NCBI RefSeq assembly: GCF_005049285.1
Contig: NZ_SOSC01000011.1
Location: 1 to 64,000, forward strand
Reading direction: 5' to 3'
Origin: Halorientalis salina
GTDB taxonomy: Archaea > Halobacteriota > Halobacteria > Halobacteriales > Haloarculaceae
DNA length: 64,000 nt
Part shown: piece after piece, positions 39,449 through 50,324 of the stretch
Position numbering within the stretch: position 1 is the first letter of the stretch
How the letters are laid out: each line of letters begins with the position of its first letter
Notes under the pieces: generated by a model
Databases searched by the model: none
Seen by the model: only the letters and a program-made list of their open reading frames with translations
What the model was told of the DNA's origin: nothing
Made by a program: the position numbers and the translations under genes

Positions 39449-39970
39449 TCAGGCGGTCGGCGACGTCCACTCCGCGAGCGTGAACGACTTGCTGTTGTCC
39501 GGGTCCTCCCAGACGACTTCCGCCGACGCGTGTTTCATCGAGAACTTCTCGCCCTTGAGCCCCGAGTACTGCCCGGAGTGTTCGAGCGAGTGTTTGCTGA
39601 CGTTCACCGACATCCCGGCTGAGAGTCGGTCCGGCGACGACGGTGTCAGTTTCGGCCACTCGAGGCGCGTGGTGATGACGCCGGCAGCGGACGACGGCGT
39701 CGTCACGTCGCTTACCGTAATCGCGACGTTGTCCGCCTCGACCGTGTCACCGCCCGAGTGCGCGATCTTCAGGCGGTCGTCGTTGTGGTTGTCGTCGCTA
39801 CTGTACTCGAAGTTGATCGCCACCTGCGGTGTACTGGAGTTGTCGCCCGCCAGCCCCAGGAAAAACGACGCGGCCGTCGCCGCGAGCAACACCGTGATCG
39901 CGACCATGAGGATGACGCCGATGACCGGCGACACCGCTGAATCGTCCGTGATGAGTTCCTTGATTTGCAT
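39449..39970 (-). CDS. Type IV pilin (haloarchaeal class III signal peptide)
   Basis: From MQIKELITDDSAVSPVIG the protein has 173 residues. The N-terminus is the archaeal class III signal: a short charged leader, a prepilin-peptidase site near DDSAVSP, then the hydrophobic shaft VIGVILMVAITVLLAATAAS. The rest is a beta-rich globular domain with many Ser, Thr, Asp and Asn (DNSSTPQVAINFEYSSDD). It should be cleaved by PibD and polymerise into an adhesion pilus, or act as a minor pilin. The start fits a conserved leader; 24 more upstream codons are open but not pilin-like. Confidence 0.88.
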   Translation of the reverse strand: MQIKELITDDSAVSPVIGVILMVAITVLLAATAASFFLGLAGDNSSTPQVAINFEYSSDDNHNDDRLKIAHSGGDTVEADNVAITVSDVTTPSSAAGVITTRLEWPKLTPSSPDRLSAGMSVNVSKHSLEHSGQYSGLKGEKFSMKHASAEVVWEDPDNSKSFTLAEWTSPTA

Positions 39971-40010
39971 CTTCCTTCCCCCAACGTACGAACGGGCCGA
40001 CGATCCCACA

Positions 40011-40082
40011 CCATCTCGACTGGCACCGAGATGGACTCCCAACGTGGAGCCGCTAGTCCCGCCGTATGTCTGTTTCTAGAAA
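40011..40082 (-). promoter_or_regulatory. Pilin 5' region: leader hairpin and GTTTCTAGAAAC palindrome
   Basis: Upstream of the pilin ATG (39970, minus strand) CCATCTCG at 40011-40018 pairs with CGAGATGG at 40027-40034, and a perfect 12-nt palindrome GTTTCTAGAAAC lies at 40071-40082 beside a GGGTATAG TATA-like element. The palindrome sits where a repressor or activator could bind; the hairpin would be in the mRNA leader. Confidence 0.4.
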
Positions 40083-43287: not shown

Positions 43288-44511
43288 TCAGTCTTCCCGC
43301 TCGTCAGTCTGACCGCTCTCTTCTGTCGTCACGGGTTCCGGTTCGCTCCCGTTGGAGCCGTGCTGTTCGTCGTCGCCCTGCTCCTCCCACGAATCCCGGA
43401 GCGAAACGTTCGTCCGACGTGATAGCAGGGGCGACCACGACACCGGGCCGGGTTCCGGCGGTGCATCGTAGCGATACACCAGGTCCTCGACGGCGACGAC
43501 GTACTCCCCGTCCCCGTCCTCGATAACCCGTCGGTCGCTGTCGATCGCGATGTCGACGAGCCCTTCGAGCGTCTCGACCTCGACGACGGCCCCGTCGAGT
43601 GCCCCCTCGGGCAGCCGAGCGCGCGTGATCCAGTCTCCGAACTCGGACCGAGCCGTCTCGTAGGTCAGGTAGGCTCGCTCCCGCTCGTCGAGCGCGAGCC
43701 GTCCGCGGTACTGAGCGGTCCCGAGCGCGAGCAGCCCACCGATCCCGACCAGCCCCAGAGCCGGTCCGCCGACCCCTCGGAGCGGTCCCGGACTGTTCGC
43801 GACCTCGACCGTCCGGGTCTGTCGGGTCGTGTTCGTGACCGGACCGGGATCGGTGAGCCGGTAGACACTCCCCCCAGGCGAGATCCCGAGTTCGTACTGC
43901 TGGTCACGAGCGACCTGCCCACCGTTGGCTCGCCCCTCCGTCTCGATGTCGGCGACGACGCTCGTCTCGATGGTTCCGGGCGTCCCGCCGACCGTCCGGT
44001 CGAGTCGCTGTGACTCGTTTCGCAACTGCGTCACGTTCTCCGAAAACGACAGTTGCAGCGATTCGCCGGGCGCGAGCGAGGCTCGTTCCCGATCCAATTG
44101 CCGGGTCACTCGCCAGTACTCGACCGTCGATCCCTCACCACCGGAGTCGACCGCTGCGATGACGAGCGTGAGCGTCCCGTCGACAGTCACGTTCCCGGTT
44201 TCCGTCGCAGTGTATCGGTACGTGAACGTGCCGTCGAGCGTCGGCGTGATCCGACTGAAGTAGGCGTCCCTGTTCGAGAGCGTCGTCCCCTGCGCAAACA
44301 CGGGATTTGACCGCTGGACGGTCGCGTTGTGCGTGAACTCTCCCGTATAGGTCGCTTCCGGCCCCGGTTGCTCGGCGGTCGACGTGTCCGACTGGGCGTA
44401 GGCCGTGTAGGTCATCCCCGCCCCGGCGAGTGCGGCCACCAACAGAACGGTCGCGACCACCCCGAAATTCGAATCGAGGACGGCCCGTATCCGTCGTCCC
44501 CGTCTACCCAT
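43288..44511 (-). CDS. DUF5305-like membrane protein of a surface-protein export cluster
   Basis: This 407-residue protein has an N-terminal span (FGVVATVLLVAALAGAGM), an extracellular domain of about 200 residues starting YTAYAQSD with TYTGEFTHNATVQRSNPVF and FTYRYTATETGNVTVDG, a second span (GGPALGLVGIGGLLALG), and a cytoplasmic acidic tail. The pattern matches DUF5305 proteins, often encoded with signal peptidases. It follows the signal peptidase gene on the minus strand, 53 nt apart, and may help assemble or anchor the exported DUF1102 proteins. Confidence 0.75.
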   Translation of the reverse strand: MGRRGRRIRAVLDSNFGVVATVLLVAALAGAGMTYTAYAQSDTSTAEQPGPEATYTGEFTHNATVQRSNPVFAQGTTLSNRDAYFSRITPTLDGTFTYRYTATETGNVTVDGTLTLVIAAVDSGGEGSTVEYWRVTRQLDRERASLAPGESLQLSFSENVTQLRNESQRLDRTVGGTPGTIETSVVADIETEGRANGGQVARDQQYELGISPGGSVYRLTDPGPVTNTTRQTRTVEVANSPGPLRGVGGPALGLVGIGGLLALGTAQYRGRLALDERERAYLTYETARSEFGDWITRARLPEGALDGAVVEVETLEGLVDIAIDSDRRVIEDGDGEYVVAVEDLVYRYDAPPEPGPVSWSPLLSRRTNVSLRDSWEEQGDDEQHGSNGSEPEPVTTEESGQTDERED

Positions 44512-44564
44512 TGTGTCTCCTGTGCCCCGCCGTTCGGTCGGATGATCCGTTCCCTGTCATGGTT

Positions 44565-45704
44565 TCAGTCCAAGAGGCCGCTGTTCGCTGTGTCGCTGCG
44601 CGTCCGCGAGCGGAGGCGACCGGTACCGAGGACCGCCACACCCCCCAGATAGAATCCTCCGCCGAGGAGCGCGTCGATGGTGAGGAGGGGGAGCCACGGA
44701 TGGATCTCGTACAGCGTCCGAATGGTCGACGTCGGCAGGAGTCCCAGATACCGATGCTGAACGACGAACTCCCGGTAGTATCCGGTTTCCGGCGGTGCCG
44801 AAACGGTGAGCGACGCGTTCCGCGTCGTTCGCGGCGGGACGTGGAACTCCGTCGGCTCGACGGCCACCCGCTCGGTCGACGGCTCGACGAACGCGACCAC
44901 CGGCACGAGGCCACCGTTAGCCACCGGATACGTGGTGGTCTCGCTCGTCCCCTGTTCGATGACACCGAGCCCCGGCGAATCGGACTCGGCGCTGACGAAC
45001 CCGATCTCCTCCTGGCCGGCCGGTACGACCATCGCCGCGGTCGCCGAGAGCACGACGAGCGCCGCGAACCCGGCCACGAGAAGTCGGCTACTCGTTCCCG
45101 ACGCCCGCGTCCTCGATCGCTCTCGCCGGCGACCCGTTCCGCCTCCCAGCCACAGGTCGAGCAGGTACGCTATGACCGAGAGGCCGAACAACAGGTACGC
45201 CAACCCCTGTGTGCCGAGCAGCGAGCGCGTACCGAACAGCCCCGCGAGGCCCGTCTGGACACTCCCGAGCGCGTTCTGCGTCCCGGTGACGGCCGTCCCC
45301 AGCTCCGGGATCACCAGAATCGAACCGCCGGGCTGCCAGACCGTCGCGACGACCTGCGCATCTTTGACCGGGGGCTCTTCGTTGTCCTGATCGGTAAAGG
45401 GGTTGGCGTCGCCTTTCGTGACGTACCCGTCCTCGGTCTCGGAGACGACGCGGTGTGTCGTGAGTCCACCCCCGTGGAGGGATTCGGCCTCGAACACGAC
45501 GACGTCTCCTTGCTCGATCGGCCCCGAGACCGCCGCCGGGATCGCAACGAACCCGTCGCCCGGCTCCAGTGCCGGTTCCATGCTGTCGGTCGTCACGTAC
45601 CCCAACAGCACGGGCTGTCCGAGGATCTGGCCCGCGATCATCGCGACGACGAACACCACAGCTACTGCTTCGAGGAGGTGCCCGACGCGCTGCCACCCAC
45701 CCAT
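44565..45704 (-). CDS. Signal peptidase I with additional C-terminal membrane domain
   Basis: This 379-residue protein has an N-terminal span (LLEAVAVVFVVAMIAGQIL), then the catalytic domain with Ser in YVTTDSMEPALEPGD, His in LTTHRVVSE and Asp in YVTKGDANPF, the archaeal/SipW-type S-H-D signature. After about residue 150 come further spans (LGTQGLAYLLFGLSVIAYLL and LLVAGFAALVVLSATAAMVV), an exposed beta-rich domain and a last span. Normal signal peptidases are half this size. Its neighbours are three exported DUF1102 proteins, so it is likely a dedicated processing enzyme. Confidence 0.85.
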   Translation of the reverse strand: MGGWQRVGHLLEAVAVVFVVAMIAGQILGQPVLLGYVTTDSMEPALEPGDGFVAIPAAVSGPIEQGDVVVFEAESLHGGGLTTHRVVSETEDGYVTKGDANPFTDQDNEEPPVKDAQVVATVWQPGGSILVIPELGTAVTGTQNALGSVQTGLAGLFGTRSLLGTQGLAYLLFGLSVIAYLLDLWLGGGTGRRRERSRTRASGTSSRLLVAGFAALVVLSATAAMVVPAGQEEIGFVSAESDSPGLGVIEQGTSETTTYPVANGGLVPVVAFVEPSTERVAVEPTEFHVPPRTTRNASLTVSAPPETGYYREFVVQHRYLGLLPTSTIRTLYEIHPWLPLLTIDALLGGGFYLGGVAVLGTGRLRSRTRSDTANSGLLD

Positions 45705-45780
45705 CGAGAGACCTTAGAACGACGACAGTAAAAGATGTGTCGACAGCATCATTTTTCGAGCGGCTCTCGGCCACCGAGTT

Positions 45781-47340
45781 TCAGTCCCACTGATAGCCCG
45801 CGGATTCGATCTCGTCGCTCGGGTCCCCATCGCCGACTCTGTTCTCGATCGCTACCGGATCGTTCGCTTCACCCGCGTCGTTGTCCCGGAAGTGACAGCC
45901 GTCGGCGACCACGCTACCGGTTTTGCTATCGAGCTGCTCGATTCCGTACTTGGTGTTGCCGACGATGTTCGAGTCAGTGATATCGACGTCGACTTTGTCC
46001 CCGTCGATTACGATGCCGGAAAAGTTTCCATCTGGTGACTGTCCGTTATCCAGTATTGACGAATTCTTTATATCGGCATCGTAACCGACACCTCCGAACT
46101 TTATTCCGGACTCGGAATAAAACTGTATTGTCGACTGACCAATCGTCGCAGAAGAAGTTACGTTAACTTTAATTCCTGGAGTGTCCGCTTCATTTGGCCC
46201 CGCATCCTCCCGTGCCTTGATTAACGACGATTCGATGTTCAGTGTACCAACTTTATCGAGTTTGATACCATGGGTTAAGTAAGAGATATTACAGTTAGAG
46301 ATAGTAACATTGGATATATTAGAACCACTGCACAGGATCGGGTATGTATTACTATGAGTGATTTCAACATTCGATAAAGTGAGAGAGTCAATATCTGCAT
46401 TATACATTTTCATAGCCCGATTTACGTCCATAACACAGTTTTTCACCTTGATAGACTCGGTACCGGTTCCATGCAAATTATCGGTACCCCCGCCAACAGA
46501 GAGTGCATCTGTCGAAGTATTCGGAAAACTAAGATCTTGTAATGTTAGATTGAGGCCTTCGGGAATCCAGGGTACTTTAACAGTCTGCTCGATGTTTGGC
46601 TTTCTTCCGTCTGCCCCTTTGATTGTCAGATCGGATTGGACTTCATCTACCCAAATACCAGAACCGCTATACGTGCCATAGTCGTGAACGAGCACGGTAT
46701 CACCATCCTCGGCGTTCTCTACGGCTTCGTCGATCGACGAGTACTCACCACAGTCGTCGGCGTTGCTCACCAGCAGTTCGTTCTCGCCAGCGACCGGACA
46801 GGTGACACCGACGCCATCCTCGGACGCGTCAGCGTGGACGGTCACGTCGACATCCCAGGTATCGGTATCCAGCCCGTGCGTGTCGACGTACACGCCAAGT
46901 GAAACCCCGGCACCCGGGTCGATTTCGACGACACCGTCGCCTTCACCCTGAAGCTTCGAGGATTCCGCACCGTCCTGGTAGAACCAGAGGTTGTCATCGT
47001 CGAAGGTCGATCCCGAGACCGACAGCCAGACGCCGACCGGCTGGGTGCCCTGATTCGTCACCTCGAACACGTCGTCGAATCTGTAGGTCGAATCCGTTCC
47101 GAGGCCACCACCGCCGGCATCGGTTCCGGTGAAATCGAGTTCGAGTTGTCCGTTAGTCGTCGTTGCGTATGCGCCGTTCGGGCCGTCGGATGGCGTCAGC
47201 TTCAGGAACGCCGCGTCGTCGTCCGCGACGCTCACGGAAACGGACCGCTCGGCACTGACGCTCGTGAACGCGCCAGTGCCGAGGATGCCGCTGCCGCCTG
47301 CGAGCCCCCCGACCCCGATGAGTAGTTTGCGTCGTCTCAT
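45781..47340 (-). CDS. DUF1102-type exported protein fused to a right-handed beta-helix
   Basis: This 519-residue protein begins MRRRKLLIGVGGLAGGSG with a twin-arginine-like signal and the shared GTGAFTSVSA region, then a DUF1102-like domain (RSVSVSVADDDAAFLKL). From about residue 195 (EYSSIDEAVENAEDGDTVLV) it is a parallel beta-helix with PbH1-like repeats such as IKVKNCVMDVNRAMKM, NVTISNCNISYLTHGIKL and VDITDSNIVGNTKYGIEQ. DNA for residues about 230-440 is strikingly AT-rich while the N-terminal part is GC-rich, so the helix was probably acquired separately. It should be surface-exposed. Confidence 0.8.
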   Translation of the reverse strand: MRRRKLLIGVGGLAGGSGILGTGAFTSVSAERSVSVSVADDDAAFLKLTPSDGPNGAYATTTNGQLELDFTGTDAGGGGLGTDSTYRFDDVFEVTNQGTQPVGVWLSVSGSTFDDDNLWFYQDGAESSKLQGEGDGVVEIDPGAGVSLGVYVDTHGLDTDTWDVDVTVHADASEDGVGVTCPVAGENELLVSNADDCGEYSSIDEAVENAEDGDTVLVHDYGTYSGSGIWVDEVQSDLTIKGADGRKPNIEQTVKVPWIPEGLNLTLQDLSFPNTSTDALSVGGGTDNLHGTGTESIKVKNCVMDVNRAMKMYNADIDSLTLSNVEITHSNTYPILCSGSNISNVTISNCNISYLTHGIKLDKVGTLNIESSLIKAREDAGPNEADTPGIKVNVTSSATIGQSTIQFYSESGIKFGGVGYDADIKNSSILDNGQSPDGNFSGIVIDGDKVDVDITDSNIVGNTKYGIEQLDSKTGSVVADGCHFRDNDAGEANDPVAIENRVGDGDPSDEIESAGYQWD

Positions 47341-47429
47341 AGTCCTCCGTGCGTGCCCCTTCCCTGGGGAAAGCCCACCGGCGGAATCGAACCGCCGGCT
47401 CGTCCGTGAGGACGAGTCGCCAGCGTGGG
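47341..47429 (-). other. Intergenic double hairpin with a tRNA T-arm-like loop
   Basis: Between two DUF1102 genes the minus strand forms CTCGTCC/GGACGAG (4-nt loop) and CCGGCGG/CCGCCGG with the 7-nt loop TTCGATT, identical in form to a T-psi-C arm, then a G/C-rich third palindrome CCCC/GGGG. It may act as a transcript-processing, stability or attenuator element controlling stoichiometry of the two surface proteins. Confidence 0.5.
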
Positions 47430-48002
47430 TTAGTTGTCCGCGTCCGCGTTGATGATCAGCGGTACGTCGTACGTGTTGACGCTGACATCGTGGGTATCCA
47501 GTTGGACGCCACAGCGGAGCGTACTCCCGACGCCGAGTGATTTGTACGGATCACTCTCCGTCAATATCTCCTTCTCGTCCGTCTCTGGGTCGAAGATGGC
47601 GACCGATGGCTCGTCGGCGTCCGAGCCGTTCGTGCCGTAGACGTCGACGGGTTGGGTTCCCTGGTTTATGACCTTGAACAGGCCGTCGCCAGGGTTGCCG
47701 CCCGCGTCGGCACCGAATTTGTAGACCGAGTCCGGGGCGACGCCGTCGGGATCCGTGGGGTCGCCGCTCGGATACTGGCCTTCGTCGTCACTCGGAATGT
47801 TCAGTTCGAGCTTCCCGCCGTCGGTTACCGACCGTTTCCCAGTCCCGAGTTCCTGAAGTTTCAGGAGTGCGTCGCTGTCTTCCTCGACGGCGACTGTGAC
47901 GGTTCTATCGGCGCTGACGCTAGTGAACGCACCGGTGCCGACGAGCAGGCCGCTACCCGCGGCCAAGCCGCCCATTCCGGCGAGGAGGTTGCGTCGTTTC
48001 AT
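47430..48002 (-). CDS. DUF1102-type exported protein
   Basis: This 190-residue protein starts MKRRNLLAGMGGLAAGSG with RR motif and GTGAFTSVSA, the presumed signal peptidase site falling after SVSA. The mature part begins DRTVTVAVEEDSDALLKLQE and is a compact beta-rich acidic domain (FKVINQGTQPVDVYGTNGSD). It is the second of three same-strand paralogues; spacing to the first is 35 nt. The fold resembles SipW-dependent TasA-like secreted proteins in its processing region and hydrophobic beta strand after cleavage. Confidence 0.8.
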   Translation of the reverse strand: MKRRNLLAGMGGLAAGSGLLVGTGAFTSVSADRTVTVAVEEDSDALLKLQELGTGKRSVTDGGKLELNIPSDDEGQYPSGDPTDPDGVAPDSVYKFGADAGGNPGDGLFKVINQGTQPVDVYGTNGSDADEPSVAIFDPETDEKEILTESDPYKSLGVGSTLRCGVQLDTHDVSVNTYDVPLIINADADN

Positions 48003-48037
48003 GTTTTCTTCCGAGACGCTCGTTTGCTACATTCCCA

Positions 48038-48757
48038 TTAGTCGTCAGATCCGCTCGACAGGGAAGCAGCGTACTCGGCGTCAGCGGCGATGTTCATCGA
48101 GATCTCGCCATCAAAGTTACTACCGCTGTCGTCAATGTGGAGCCCGAAGTTGAGGGATTCGCCCGGCGCAAGCGTGAAGTCCTCCGGTTCGTAGTAGCCT
48201 GCTTCTTCCGGGAAGGCATCTCTGTTGTGTGTCTCTTCTTTAGTATCATCCAGGTATACACTGGTCAGACTCAGGGAGTCGGCGTCAGGATAGCTGACTC
48301 GGTGGGGAAGGCTGCTTGCCTGCGGGTCGATGTAGAGATCCGAGCTCCCGTCTTCACCCACCGATTCGGGACTGACGCTTGTCGGCGGCACGTAGACAAA
48401 GACGTTCTGCGTCCCGTGATTCTTGACTTTGAAGATGTTGAGAATCTGTGTCACGGCGTTCTTGTTCACACCAGCGGGACTCCCACTGTTGTCCCCGTTG
48501 ATGTCATTTCCGTCGAGGTTGACTCGAATCGCACTCCCACTCTCGTCCGCATACACACTGTTTGACAGCGTGGATTCTGCGTCGAGAGCGAGCAGTGCGC
48601 TGGCGTCGTCTGCAACCTTCACTTCCATCGTACGGTTCGCGGTCACACTCGTAAACGCGCCTGTACCCATTGCAGCTGCCGAGCCGGCAGCGAGCGATCC
48701 TGTGCCGATAAGGAATTTGCGTCGTTCCATAGTTGTCTCACGCGCACCCACCCCCAA
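48038..48757 (-). CDS. DUF1102-type exported protein
   Basis: This 239-residue protein starts MERRKFLIGTGSLAAGSA, with a good twin-arginine motif (RRKFL), GTGAFTSVTA and NRTMEVKVADDASALLAL. The mature domain contains FKVKNHGTQNVFVYVPPTS, matching the equivalent NQGTQPV segment in its paralogues, and DFTLAPGESLNFGLHIDDSG near the end. It is the first gene of the minus-strand surface cluster. Several paralogues with conserved N-termini and divergent bodies suggest subunits of one surface structure or variants under diversifying selection. Confidence 0.8.
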   Translation of the reverse strand: MGVGARETTMERRKFLIGTGSLAAGSAAAMGTGAFTSVTANRTMEVKVADDASALLALDAESTLSNSVYADESGSAIRVNLDGNDINGDNSGSPAGVNKNAVTQILNIFKVKNHGTQNVFVYVPPTSVSPESVGEDGSSDLYIDPQASSLPHRVSYPDADSLSLTSVYLDDTKEETHNRDAFPEEAGYYEPEDFTLAPGESLNFGLHIDDSGSNFDGEISMNIAADAEYAASLSSGSDD

Positions 48758-49155
48758 GGCGGGTTGCGCTCATTCCGTCAATGGTCCCTACCCATCATTG
48801 TATTATCACGCTTGAACGTGACCGGGCCACACACCGGCTCAGATTCGAAGAGTGGCTGAAACCCTTCTGGCAGCGTTATCTTCCCCTACAACACTCACCT
48901 GAACGGCCCGTAATCGGTCGTTATTTGCTCGATACAGCCAGCTAACGGGAGCGACAAGGTCTAGAGAGCCCAAAGCTCGAATCCGGGTCCCAGGGCGCAC
49001 CTAATCCGGGCGTTCTTTCCGGTTCCTGTCGAACAGACGAAAAGCATTTTTGTGTTGCTGAATTATCACCAACTGGCAACCGAAACCGAGGTCGGGTATT
49101 CGGGGGTATCTATGGGGTCACGCAATCACTATTCGATCCAGTCCGAGATGCATGG
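48758..49155. other. Divergent regulatory region of the surface-protein cluster
   Basis: About 400 nt without a convincing gene, between the minus-strand DUF1102 operon and the plus-strand regulator gene. It includes AT-rich stretches (TTGTATTATCA near 48798, GCATTTTTGTG and GAATTATCACC near 49050) that could serve as promoters. Some frames are open but have no haloarchaeal protein character. Confidence 0.55.
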
Positions 49156-49848
49156 ATGGGGCCGGTCGTCGAACCGAACCGTGTCCGTACGACGGCCGCG
49201 AACCGACGACGGGGGGCACCTATCGTGAGCAAAGCCGTCTCCACCCAGTCAGAGGTGGCCGACGACGAGGGGAGTACAGCCACAGCGCCCGGAGGCGAAA
49301 CGAGTACGGGACCCGTCTCAACCGACGAGGCGTTCGAGCTGTTGAGCAACCAACGGCGCCGGTACACGCTCCACCATCTCAAGCACAACGGCGAGGCGGT
49401 CGAGTTGGGAGAGCTGTCGGAACACGTCGCATCCTGGGAGAACGGAACGGCCGTCAGGAACGTCGATGCGGCCCAGCGCAAACGGGTGTACACCTCGCTT
49501 CAGTCCCACCACCTGCCCAAGATGGACGAGCAGGGAGTCGTCGAGTACGACGAACGCGCGGGCGTGGTCGAACTCACCGAGGAAGCAGGGGAACTCGACA
49601 TCTACCTCGAAGTCGTCAGCGGCCGCGACGTTCCCTGGAGTCAGTACTATCTCGCGTTGTCGGCGGTCAACGCGGCGATCGTCGCCGCCGTCGCCGTCGG
49701 TGCGTGGCCGTTCAGTATCCTGCCCGACATCGCCTGGGCCGCCTTCGTCGTGACGACGATGGTCGTCTCCGCGGCCGTTCACATCTATCACGACACCTCG
49801 ATGCGACTCGGGACGAACGCGAAACCGCCGGAGATCCGCGAGCGATGA
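49156..49848 (+). CDS. DUF7344-like HTH regulator with two membrane spans
   Basis: This 230-residue protein has a winged-helix domain (STDEAFELLSNQRRRYTLHHL, the haloarchaeal DUF7344 opening, then VYTSLQSHHLPKMDEQGVVEYD) and two C-terminal spans (YYLALSAVNAAIVAAVAVGAW and AAFVVTTMVVSAAVHIYHD). It is probably a membrane-tethered transcription factor. The start may instead be the GTG at 49225 (VSKAVSTQSE). Its stop overlaps the next ATG by 4 nt, tying it to a DUF1102-like exported protein and making it a candidate regulator of the surface cluster. Confidence 0.8.
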   Translation: MGPVVEPNRVRTTAANRRRGAPIVSKAVSTQSEVADDEGSTATAPGGETSTGPVSTDEAFELLSNQRRRYTLHHLKHNGEAVELGELSEHVASWENGTAVRNVDAAQRKRVYTSLQSHHLPKMDEQGVVEYDERAGVVELTEEAGELDIYLEVVSGRDVPWSQYYLALSAVNAAIVAAVAVGAWPFSILPDIAWAAFVVTTMVVSAAVHIYHDTSMRLGTNAKPPEIRER

Positions 49849-50324
49849 GTCGATTGCGACGGCTCTGTCTCCTCGTCGGGTTCGCAGCCGTCGTGCTCGC
49901 CGTCGGGACCGGTTCGTTTAGCGCGTCCACGTCCGACCGGAGCGTCGCCGTCGACGTCGTCGACGACGAGGACGCCATGCTGGGTCTCGTGGCTGAACAC
50001 CCCGAGCGCGCGGTCGGGCCGAACGGGACCCGCACTCACTCGGAAGTACCGGTACTCACCGTGACGAACCGGTTCGGCTCGCCGATAACGTCGATCAGAG
50101 TGACAGTCGTTTCGGCGGAGACGCCGGCAGCCGTCAGTGTCGATCAGGTCGAGTTCAGCGCGGACAGTCTCGGACCGGGTAAAGCGGGGACCGTCGACGC
50201 GACGGTCACGTGTGCGGACGCGGGAACCGCCTCGGTGACGGTCCGAATCGAGACAGAAAGCGAATCGGCGTCGGTCGAGACGACGGAGACGGCGACGGTC
50301 GAGTGTACGCGATCCTCGACGTGA
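49845..50324 (+). CDS. DUF1102-like exported protein coupled to the HTH regulator
   Basis: This 159-residue protein starts MSRLRRLCLLVGFAAVVLAV, followed by GTGSFSASTSDRSVAVDVVDDEDAM, the same processing-region pattern as the three minus-strand paralogues. The mature part is a short beta-sandwich-like domain (VPVLTVTNRFGSPITSIRVT, GPGKAGTVDATVTCADAGTA). It is translated from the same message as the HTH membrane protein, which suggests a sensing or assembly-checkpoint role. Start chosen at the ATGA overlap. Confidence 0.8.
   Translation: MSRLRRLCLLVGFAAVVLAVGTGSFSASTSDRSVAVDVVDDEDAMLGLVAEHPERAVGPNGTRTHSEVPVLTVTNRFGSPITSIRVTVVSAETPAAVSVDQVEFSADSLGPGKAGTVDATVTCADAGTASVTVRIETESESASVETTETATVECTRSST

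Follow-up and report, generated by a model that had tools for sequence, protein, structure and literature searches.

A probable Tat-fimbria gene cluster of divergent type in Halorientalis salina

Tat-fimbriae ('tafi'), which take their name from twin-arginine translocation (Tat), are attributed to Galeva et al. (2025, iScience 28:111793) in a passage of PMC12687288. A Protein Data Bank (PDB) entry released in 2025 bears the title 'Structure of Natrinema sp. J7-2 Tafi pilus' (PDB entry 9p0a), and NCBIfam (2026) contains the fimbrial-protein models TafA, TafC, TafE and TafF. In the tapA-sipW-tasA system of Bacillus subtilis, SipW cuts TasA at TWA↓AF, so that Phe occupies P2' (PMC10269814), and its donor strand consists of residues 28-38, including F29 and I32 (PMC9674648). 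Here we describe a cluster of seven genes at positions 43288-50324 of a 64,000-nucleotide stretch of Halorientalis salina DNA (contig NZ_SOSC01000011.1, positions 1 to 64,000; hereafter the window). We consider it very likely that this locus makes a Tafi-type filament, a divergent Tat-fimbria, and we are less sure of each role assigned to its individual proteins. The results computed directly are the homology of the subunits to the solved Tafi pilus, the conserved gene set, the Tat motifs and the catalytic residues of a signal peptidase. The first-pass annotation of the window had proposed a surface-fibre system whose function appeared undescribed. The idea of a fibre system with a dedicated SipW-like peptidase is upheld, the subunit profile matching 9p0a, but the function can no longer be called undescribed, since Tat-fimbriae have been known since 2025 and a pilus has been solved.

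A profile built from 61 subunits matches 9p0a with an E value of 1.9e-36, aligning profile positions 1-180 with residues 1-212 of the 215-residue chain. The same entry is the top PDB fold match of an AlphaFold2 (AF2) model of the subunit encoded at 48038-48757 (Foldseek E 3e-5, prob 1.00). Weaker fold matches of this model are the Pyrobaculum bundling pilus (PDB entry 7ueg, second) and the Sulfolobus thread (PDB entry 7pnb, fifth), with E values of 0.04 and 0.08; a PDB profile search with the subunits gave no sequence match to either. The gene for 9p0a was recovered at 100% identity in genome G159 (locus L148). Its neighbours are genes for DUF5305, peptidase, TafF-like and pilin proteins, with helix-turn-helix (HTH) and TafC-like genes on the opposite strand. 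In our view the strongest single piece of evidence is that the cluster encoding a solved pilus has the same make-up as that in the window. The window gene set (peptidase, HTH, TafC and TafE) is comparable to those of L148 and of L100, a canonical locus with TafA, TafC, TafE and TafF above the NCBIfam cut-off, and is probably complete as a Tat-fimbria set. We note that 9p0a-type clusters also encode a protein of 900-990 residues between the pilin and HTH genes (L148 10978-13686 and L149 4517-7486), which is a DUF7289 protein in L149.

Several observations weigh against assignment to the Tafi system. The window subunits bear no more than a distant resemblance to those of systems already characterised, scoring 57-70 bits against the 155-bit cut-off for TafE and 62 against 410 for TafC. 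The AF2 subunit model has a moderate predicted local distance difference test score (pLDDT 68.7) and a template-modelling score to 9p0a of 0.42-0.50. Finally, the window has no membrane-anchored TafF, a protein encoded next to the peptidase in 14 of 43 loci. In its position beside the peptidase, which TafF holds in those 14 loci, canonical ones included, stands a pilin with a C-terminal β-helix, and TafF-type C-terminal spans are absent from this protein and from the other window subunits alike. All four exported proteins match at least one NCBIfam Taf fimbrial model, in every case below cut-off, and no TafA above cut-off was found among the window proteins. A score below cut-off is nevertheless no bar to membership, because the solved Tafi pilin itself reaches only 77 of the 155 bits set for TafE. 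Judged by their sequences, the exported proteins are relatives of NCBIfam TafA, TafC and TafE, not equivalogs.

It might be argued that the locus makes no filament and that its products act separately, as components of a sheath or as secreted proteins (carbohydrate-binding β-helix proteins on the S-layer would be one example) with a common route of export and processing. The highly variable C-terminal parts of the family (β-helix, Laminin_G_3, PGF-CTERM) would suit such a role, but the pilin domain that bears these extra domains is the same throughout, as one would expect of tip subunits. The nearest relative of known structure, moreover, is a helical pilus encoded in a cluster that matches the window locus in composition. 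We regard this explanation as very improbable and retain the Tafi assignment.

The seven genes (Table 1) lie at the positions given in the first-pass annotation, and most of what it described holds. All four exported proteins have a GTG(A/S)F(T/S) region and strand with a D-x2-A-x-L block downstream, the first part reading GTGAFTSVSAE in the protein encoded at 45781-47340, GTGAFTSVSAD at 47430-48002, GTGAFTSVTAN at 48038-48757 and GTGSFSASTSD at 49845-50324. Across an alignment of 61 family members, A25, R33 and D42 never vary, and conservation is 90% or more at G22, G24, F26, A45 and L47; a chance origin of the shared motif is ruled out by this conservation. The assignment of the DUF5305 protein stands, as does that of the membrane HTH protein, whose stop overlaps the start of the TafC-like gene by ATGA (49845-49848). 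The DUF1102 label fits one of the four exported proteins, that encoded at 45781-47340, which scores 37.6 bits against a Pfam gathering threshold of 22.2; the other three fall below the threshold. The true start of the 48038-48757 gene is most likely at 48730, giving a protein of 230 amino acids.

Table 1. Genes of the cluster, with the sequence matches of their products (aa, amino acids)
Position	Strand	Product	Length (aa)	Matches
43288..44511	-	DUF5305 membrane protein	407	Pfam PF17231 E 2.3e-49
44565..45704	-	Dedicated SipW/Sec11-type signal peptidase	379	TIGR02228 E 4e-13; SipW E 6e-7
45781..47340	-	Taf-type pilin domain with Tat signal and C-terminal right-handed β-helix	519	DUF1102 E 3e-9; Beta_helix E 9e-14; TafE E 1e-16
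47430..48002	-	Taf-type pilin subunit with Tat signal	190	TafE E 1.5e-15; PDB 9p0a E 7e-9
48038..48757	-	Taf-type pilin subunit with Tat signal		TafE E 2e-19; PDB 9p0a E 4e-14, nearly whole length
49156..49848	+	DUF7344 winged-HTH protein with C-terminal membrane spans		PF24035 E 1.4e-30
49845..50324	+	Short TafC-like subunit, pilin domain only	159	TafC E 4e-17, profile positions 13-145 of 373

The exported nature of the four proteins had been recognised, but their twin-arginine signals (MRRRKLLIG, MKRRNLLAG and MERRKFLIG, with a weaker motif, RLRRLCLL, in the TafC-like protein) had been overlooked. Of 224 haloarchaeal family members, 176 have twin arginines among their first 16 residues, and TatC is encoded in the same genome; export of the window subunits via Tat is presumed. 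These signals bear on a second alternative, namely that the locus specifies a bacterial-type TasA/SipW matrix fibre, Sec-exported and built of direct members of the camelysin/TasA family. The peptidase shows a weak likeness to SipW, the motif of cleavage site and donor strand follows the layout seen in TasA and the same genome has such a cluster on contig C4, with a match to the SipW-dependent signal model TIGR04088. The window subunits, however, carry RR Tat motifs and match Taf models, no window protein matches TIGR04088, and the best match in both sequence and fold is the Tafi pilus; no sequence match of the subunits to TasA was found. We consider a TasA/SipW fibre at this locus improbable.

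The Tafi pilus also bears on the site of cleavage. Of the 215 residues in the 9p0a sequence 188 were modelled, if the length reported by the fold search is taken as the number of modelled residues, and the mature protein therefore starts at or before residue 28. In this chain GTG ends at residue 26 and SVEA at residue 33. Cleavage after the last residue of SVSA (SVEA in 9p0a), as first proposed, would leave 182 residues; it is excluded in the homologue by the modelled length and is probably wrong for the window proteins, and we reject it for the family. By analogy, cleavage at GTG↓AF or at the adjacent GTGA↓F is probable, and the spacing of F29 and I32 in TasA is the same as that of A25-F26..V29 in the window family.

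From these results we infer a pathway in which the subunits would fold in the cytosol and exit by the Tat translocase through their RRxFL signals. The Ser-His-Asp peptidase of the locus would then cut them at or next to GTG↓AF, and their N-terminal donor strand (AFxSVxAxR...) would complete the β-sandwich of the following subunit, the arrangement known from TasA and the archaeal bundling pili. The position of the motif and the modelled length of 9p0a appear compatible with such donor-strand exchange. The β-helix pilin would form the tip, DUF5305 and the second outside domain of the peptidase would contribute to the base or to assembly, and the DUF7344 protein would act as regulator.

Judged by its sequence, the peptidase is an archaeal enzyme of endoplasmic reticulum (ER) type (Sec11/SipW) with a Ser-His-Asp active site. 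S41, H84 and D105 are present in 75 of 75 aligned rows and D99 in 74, and the best PDB profile match is a SEC11A chain (E 1.1e-5). Hydropathy predicts four spans (5-35, 166-189, 205-231 and 340-359), in agreement with the extra spans noted at first. The two extra spans enclose a second domain of about 108 residues, which is placed outside because the loop that joins spans 2 and 3 is rich in arginine. A comparison using hhalign (1.7% for peptidase versus DUF5305) gave no support for a pilin-like nature of this domain. A scan of genome contigs with the peptidase returned one locus, in Halomicroarcula rubra, at 62%. The subunits may instead be processed by the general signal peptidase; a housekeeping-like copy lies on contig C18, beside genes that by inspection are Cdc6/Orc1-like and DNA polymerase small-subunit-like.

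The AF2 model of the DUF5305 protein (pLDDT 90) has helices at 16-39 and 243-268 flanking an all-β ectodomain, followed by a cytosolic domain. The predicted topology is thus N-in, a span, an extracellular β domain of about 195 residues, a second span and a cytosolic C-terminal domain. A fold search with this protein against the PDB found generic β-sandwiches, none with E below 1e-3, and hhalign (4.4% against the pilins) gave no support for a pilin-like nature. DUF5305 is a constant, so far unnamed, component of these clusters and is likely to be the base of the fimbria or a partner in its assembly. The β-helix pilin is likely to be a tip adhesin. No solved relative of its β-helix was found at E 0.01, and extensions that look β-helix-like by sequence also occur in L062 and L067, where Pfam does not recognise them. 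The TafC-like protein of the window lacks the Laminin_G_3 lectin head that is present in the canonical TafC of L099. We propose that the DUF7344 membrane HTH protein is a regulator, translationally coupled to the TafC-like gene. In the survey, 67 of 91 peptidases have such an HTH gene no more than 9 kb away, and in 38 of 63 cases the next gene is a Taf gene on the same strand. A search for operator-like repeats between the divergent genes (48700-49220) revealed short repeats only, none of them convincing.

Co-occurrence of these families in other genomes, which the first-pass annotation had made the test of its proposal, was found in a survey of 80 genomes of the order. DUF5305 is present in 65 and the large peptidase in 64. 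Their joint occurrence (63/2/1/14) gives a Fisher p of about 1e-12, on genomes that are not independent, and copy numbers of the two are equal in 71 genomes (Spearman 0.89). Near the 91 peptidase matches, a Taf subunit lies within 5 kb in 84 cases and DUF5305 in 81, in loci that were fetched mostly for their peptidase. In two exceptions, G026 (L118/L134) and G038 (L096/L135), peptidase and DUF5305 genes are far apart with no Taf gene near either. Some copies are possibly broken: the DUF5305 gene of L105 (G157:C1:1-1822) has an internal TAG, the peptidase at G010 C1:2523175-2525392 is in two pieces, and pilin homologues at G036 C2:305743 and G087 C1:1587809 have an internal TAA.

In the peptidase tree the window groups with L057-L059, outside the clade of canonical Tafi loci. 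The window type represents a paralogous system, because the related genome G091 carries one locus of each type, L058 of the window type and the canonical L100. The genome of H. salina has a second Tafi-like cluster (L045 5170-9211; C17:63169-67210) with DUF5305, TafC-like, peptidase and TafE-like genes and without the HTH gene; it is of a third type, and its peptidases form a separate clade. The C4 cluster mentioned above (L046 2902-11456) is a third fibre-like cluster of this genome, with two DUF7344 HTH genes, four exported proteins, a peptidase of its own and a Ser/Thr/Asp-rich protein. The TIGR04088 signal belongs to the first of its exported proteins, and the second has by eye a von Willebrand-A-like stretch.

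Matching clusters were also found in a second family of the same phylum (f21, genomes of 1.2-2.6 Mb), which is probably Archaeoglobaceae. The gene order in L156 is HTH, four DUF1102 proteins, TafC-like, large peptidase and DUF5305, and that in L157 is much the same; these clusters carry two to four DUF1102 pilins. RR is found in none of 36 distinct N-termini of this family, in contrast to the haloarchaeal proportion given above, and its subunits, by their signals, are presumably Sec-exported. This absence of RR from matching clusters is new here. Use of Tat is predicted to be wider in haloarchaea than in other archaea (PMC12186497). The simplest reading that the signals suggest is a single switch of the export route in haloarchaea, in which peptidase and DUF5305 were retained. 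In other loci of the second family (L152-L155) DUF5305 and peptidases are paired with YFSDxET-type (TasA-like) proteins, and DUF5305 may therefore serve TasA-like fibres more generally. As a tentative extension, about which we are more doubtful than confident, the Tafi machine would be old in the phylum, with a switch of its subunits from Sec to Tat in haloarchaea while peptidase and DUF5305 were kept. These two would form a membrane platform coupling cleavage to donor-strand polymerisation with neither usher nor chaperone, and the window type would be a paralogous fimbria in its own right, whose tip heads, the β-helix among them, could be exchanged.

Two features of the surroundings should be mentioned. 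The G+C content is 0.565 at 46001-48000 compared with about 0.65 around it, a stretch that covers the pilin and β-helix genes, and recent exchange of these subunit genes is possible. A type IV pilin gene (39449-40042, minus strand; Pilin_N E 1.4e-23), of a different filament class, lies 3 kb from the cluster. Its proximity and a faint ArlF match of DUF5305 (E 0.018) could be taken to indicate a locus related to type IV pili or the archaellum. We give this almost no credence: the subunits have no class III signal peptides, none of the seven proteins matches Pilin_N, the genes called around the locus include no ATPase or platform gene and processing would be by a type I rather than a prepilin peptidase.

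With the cluster assigned to the Tat-fimbriae, a gene set that is widespread in haloarchaea and for the most part lacks annotation (DUF5305, large peptidase, DUF7344 HTH and DUF1102-like proteins) finds its place in a fibre system already described. DUF5305, until now a family without a function, thereby acquires a role that can be tested. The RR-less clusters of the second family make a switch in the export route of fibre subunits directly testable, and the variable heads (β-helix, Laminin_G_3 and others) point to fimbriae acting as adhesins with changing targets.

Comparison with the described systems shows where the locus belongs. With B. subtilis tapA-sipW-tasA it shares a dedicated ER-type peptidase, the likely cut before A-F (GTG↓AF compared with TWA↓AF) and the layout of the N-terminal donor strand, but it differs in its presumed use of Tat rather than Sec, in lacking TapA and in having DUF5305 and the membrane HTH protein in addition. 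The Pyrobaculum bundling pili and Sulfolobus threads are likewise donor-strand filaments, and are linked to a window subunit by weak fold matches. The clusters of the second archaeal family resemble the window in bringing together HTH, DUF1102 pilin, TafC-like, large peptidase and DUF5305 genes, and differ in having signals without RR. With the Tat-fimbriae, as represented by 9p0a, the window has in common the pilin family, Tat signals, a large SipW-like peptidase, DUF5305, the HTH-TafC pair and TafE-like subunits. It departs from canonical Tafi loci in a peptidase outside their clade, the lack of TafF, a TafC without the lectin head and a β-helix on a pilin. We regard the locus as a divergent form of a system already known, and not as a new system.

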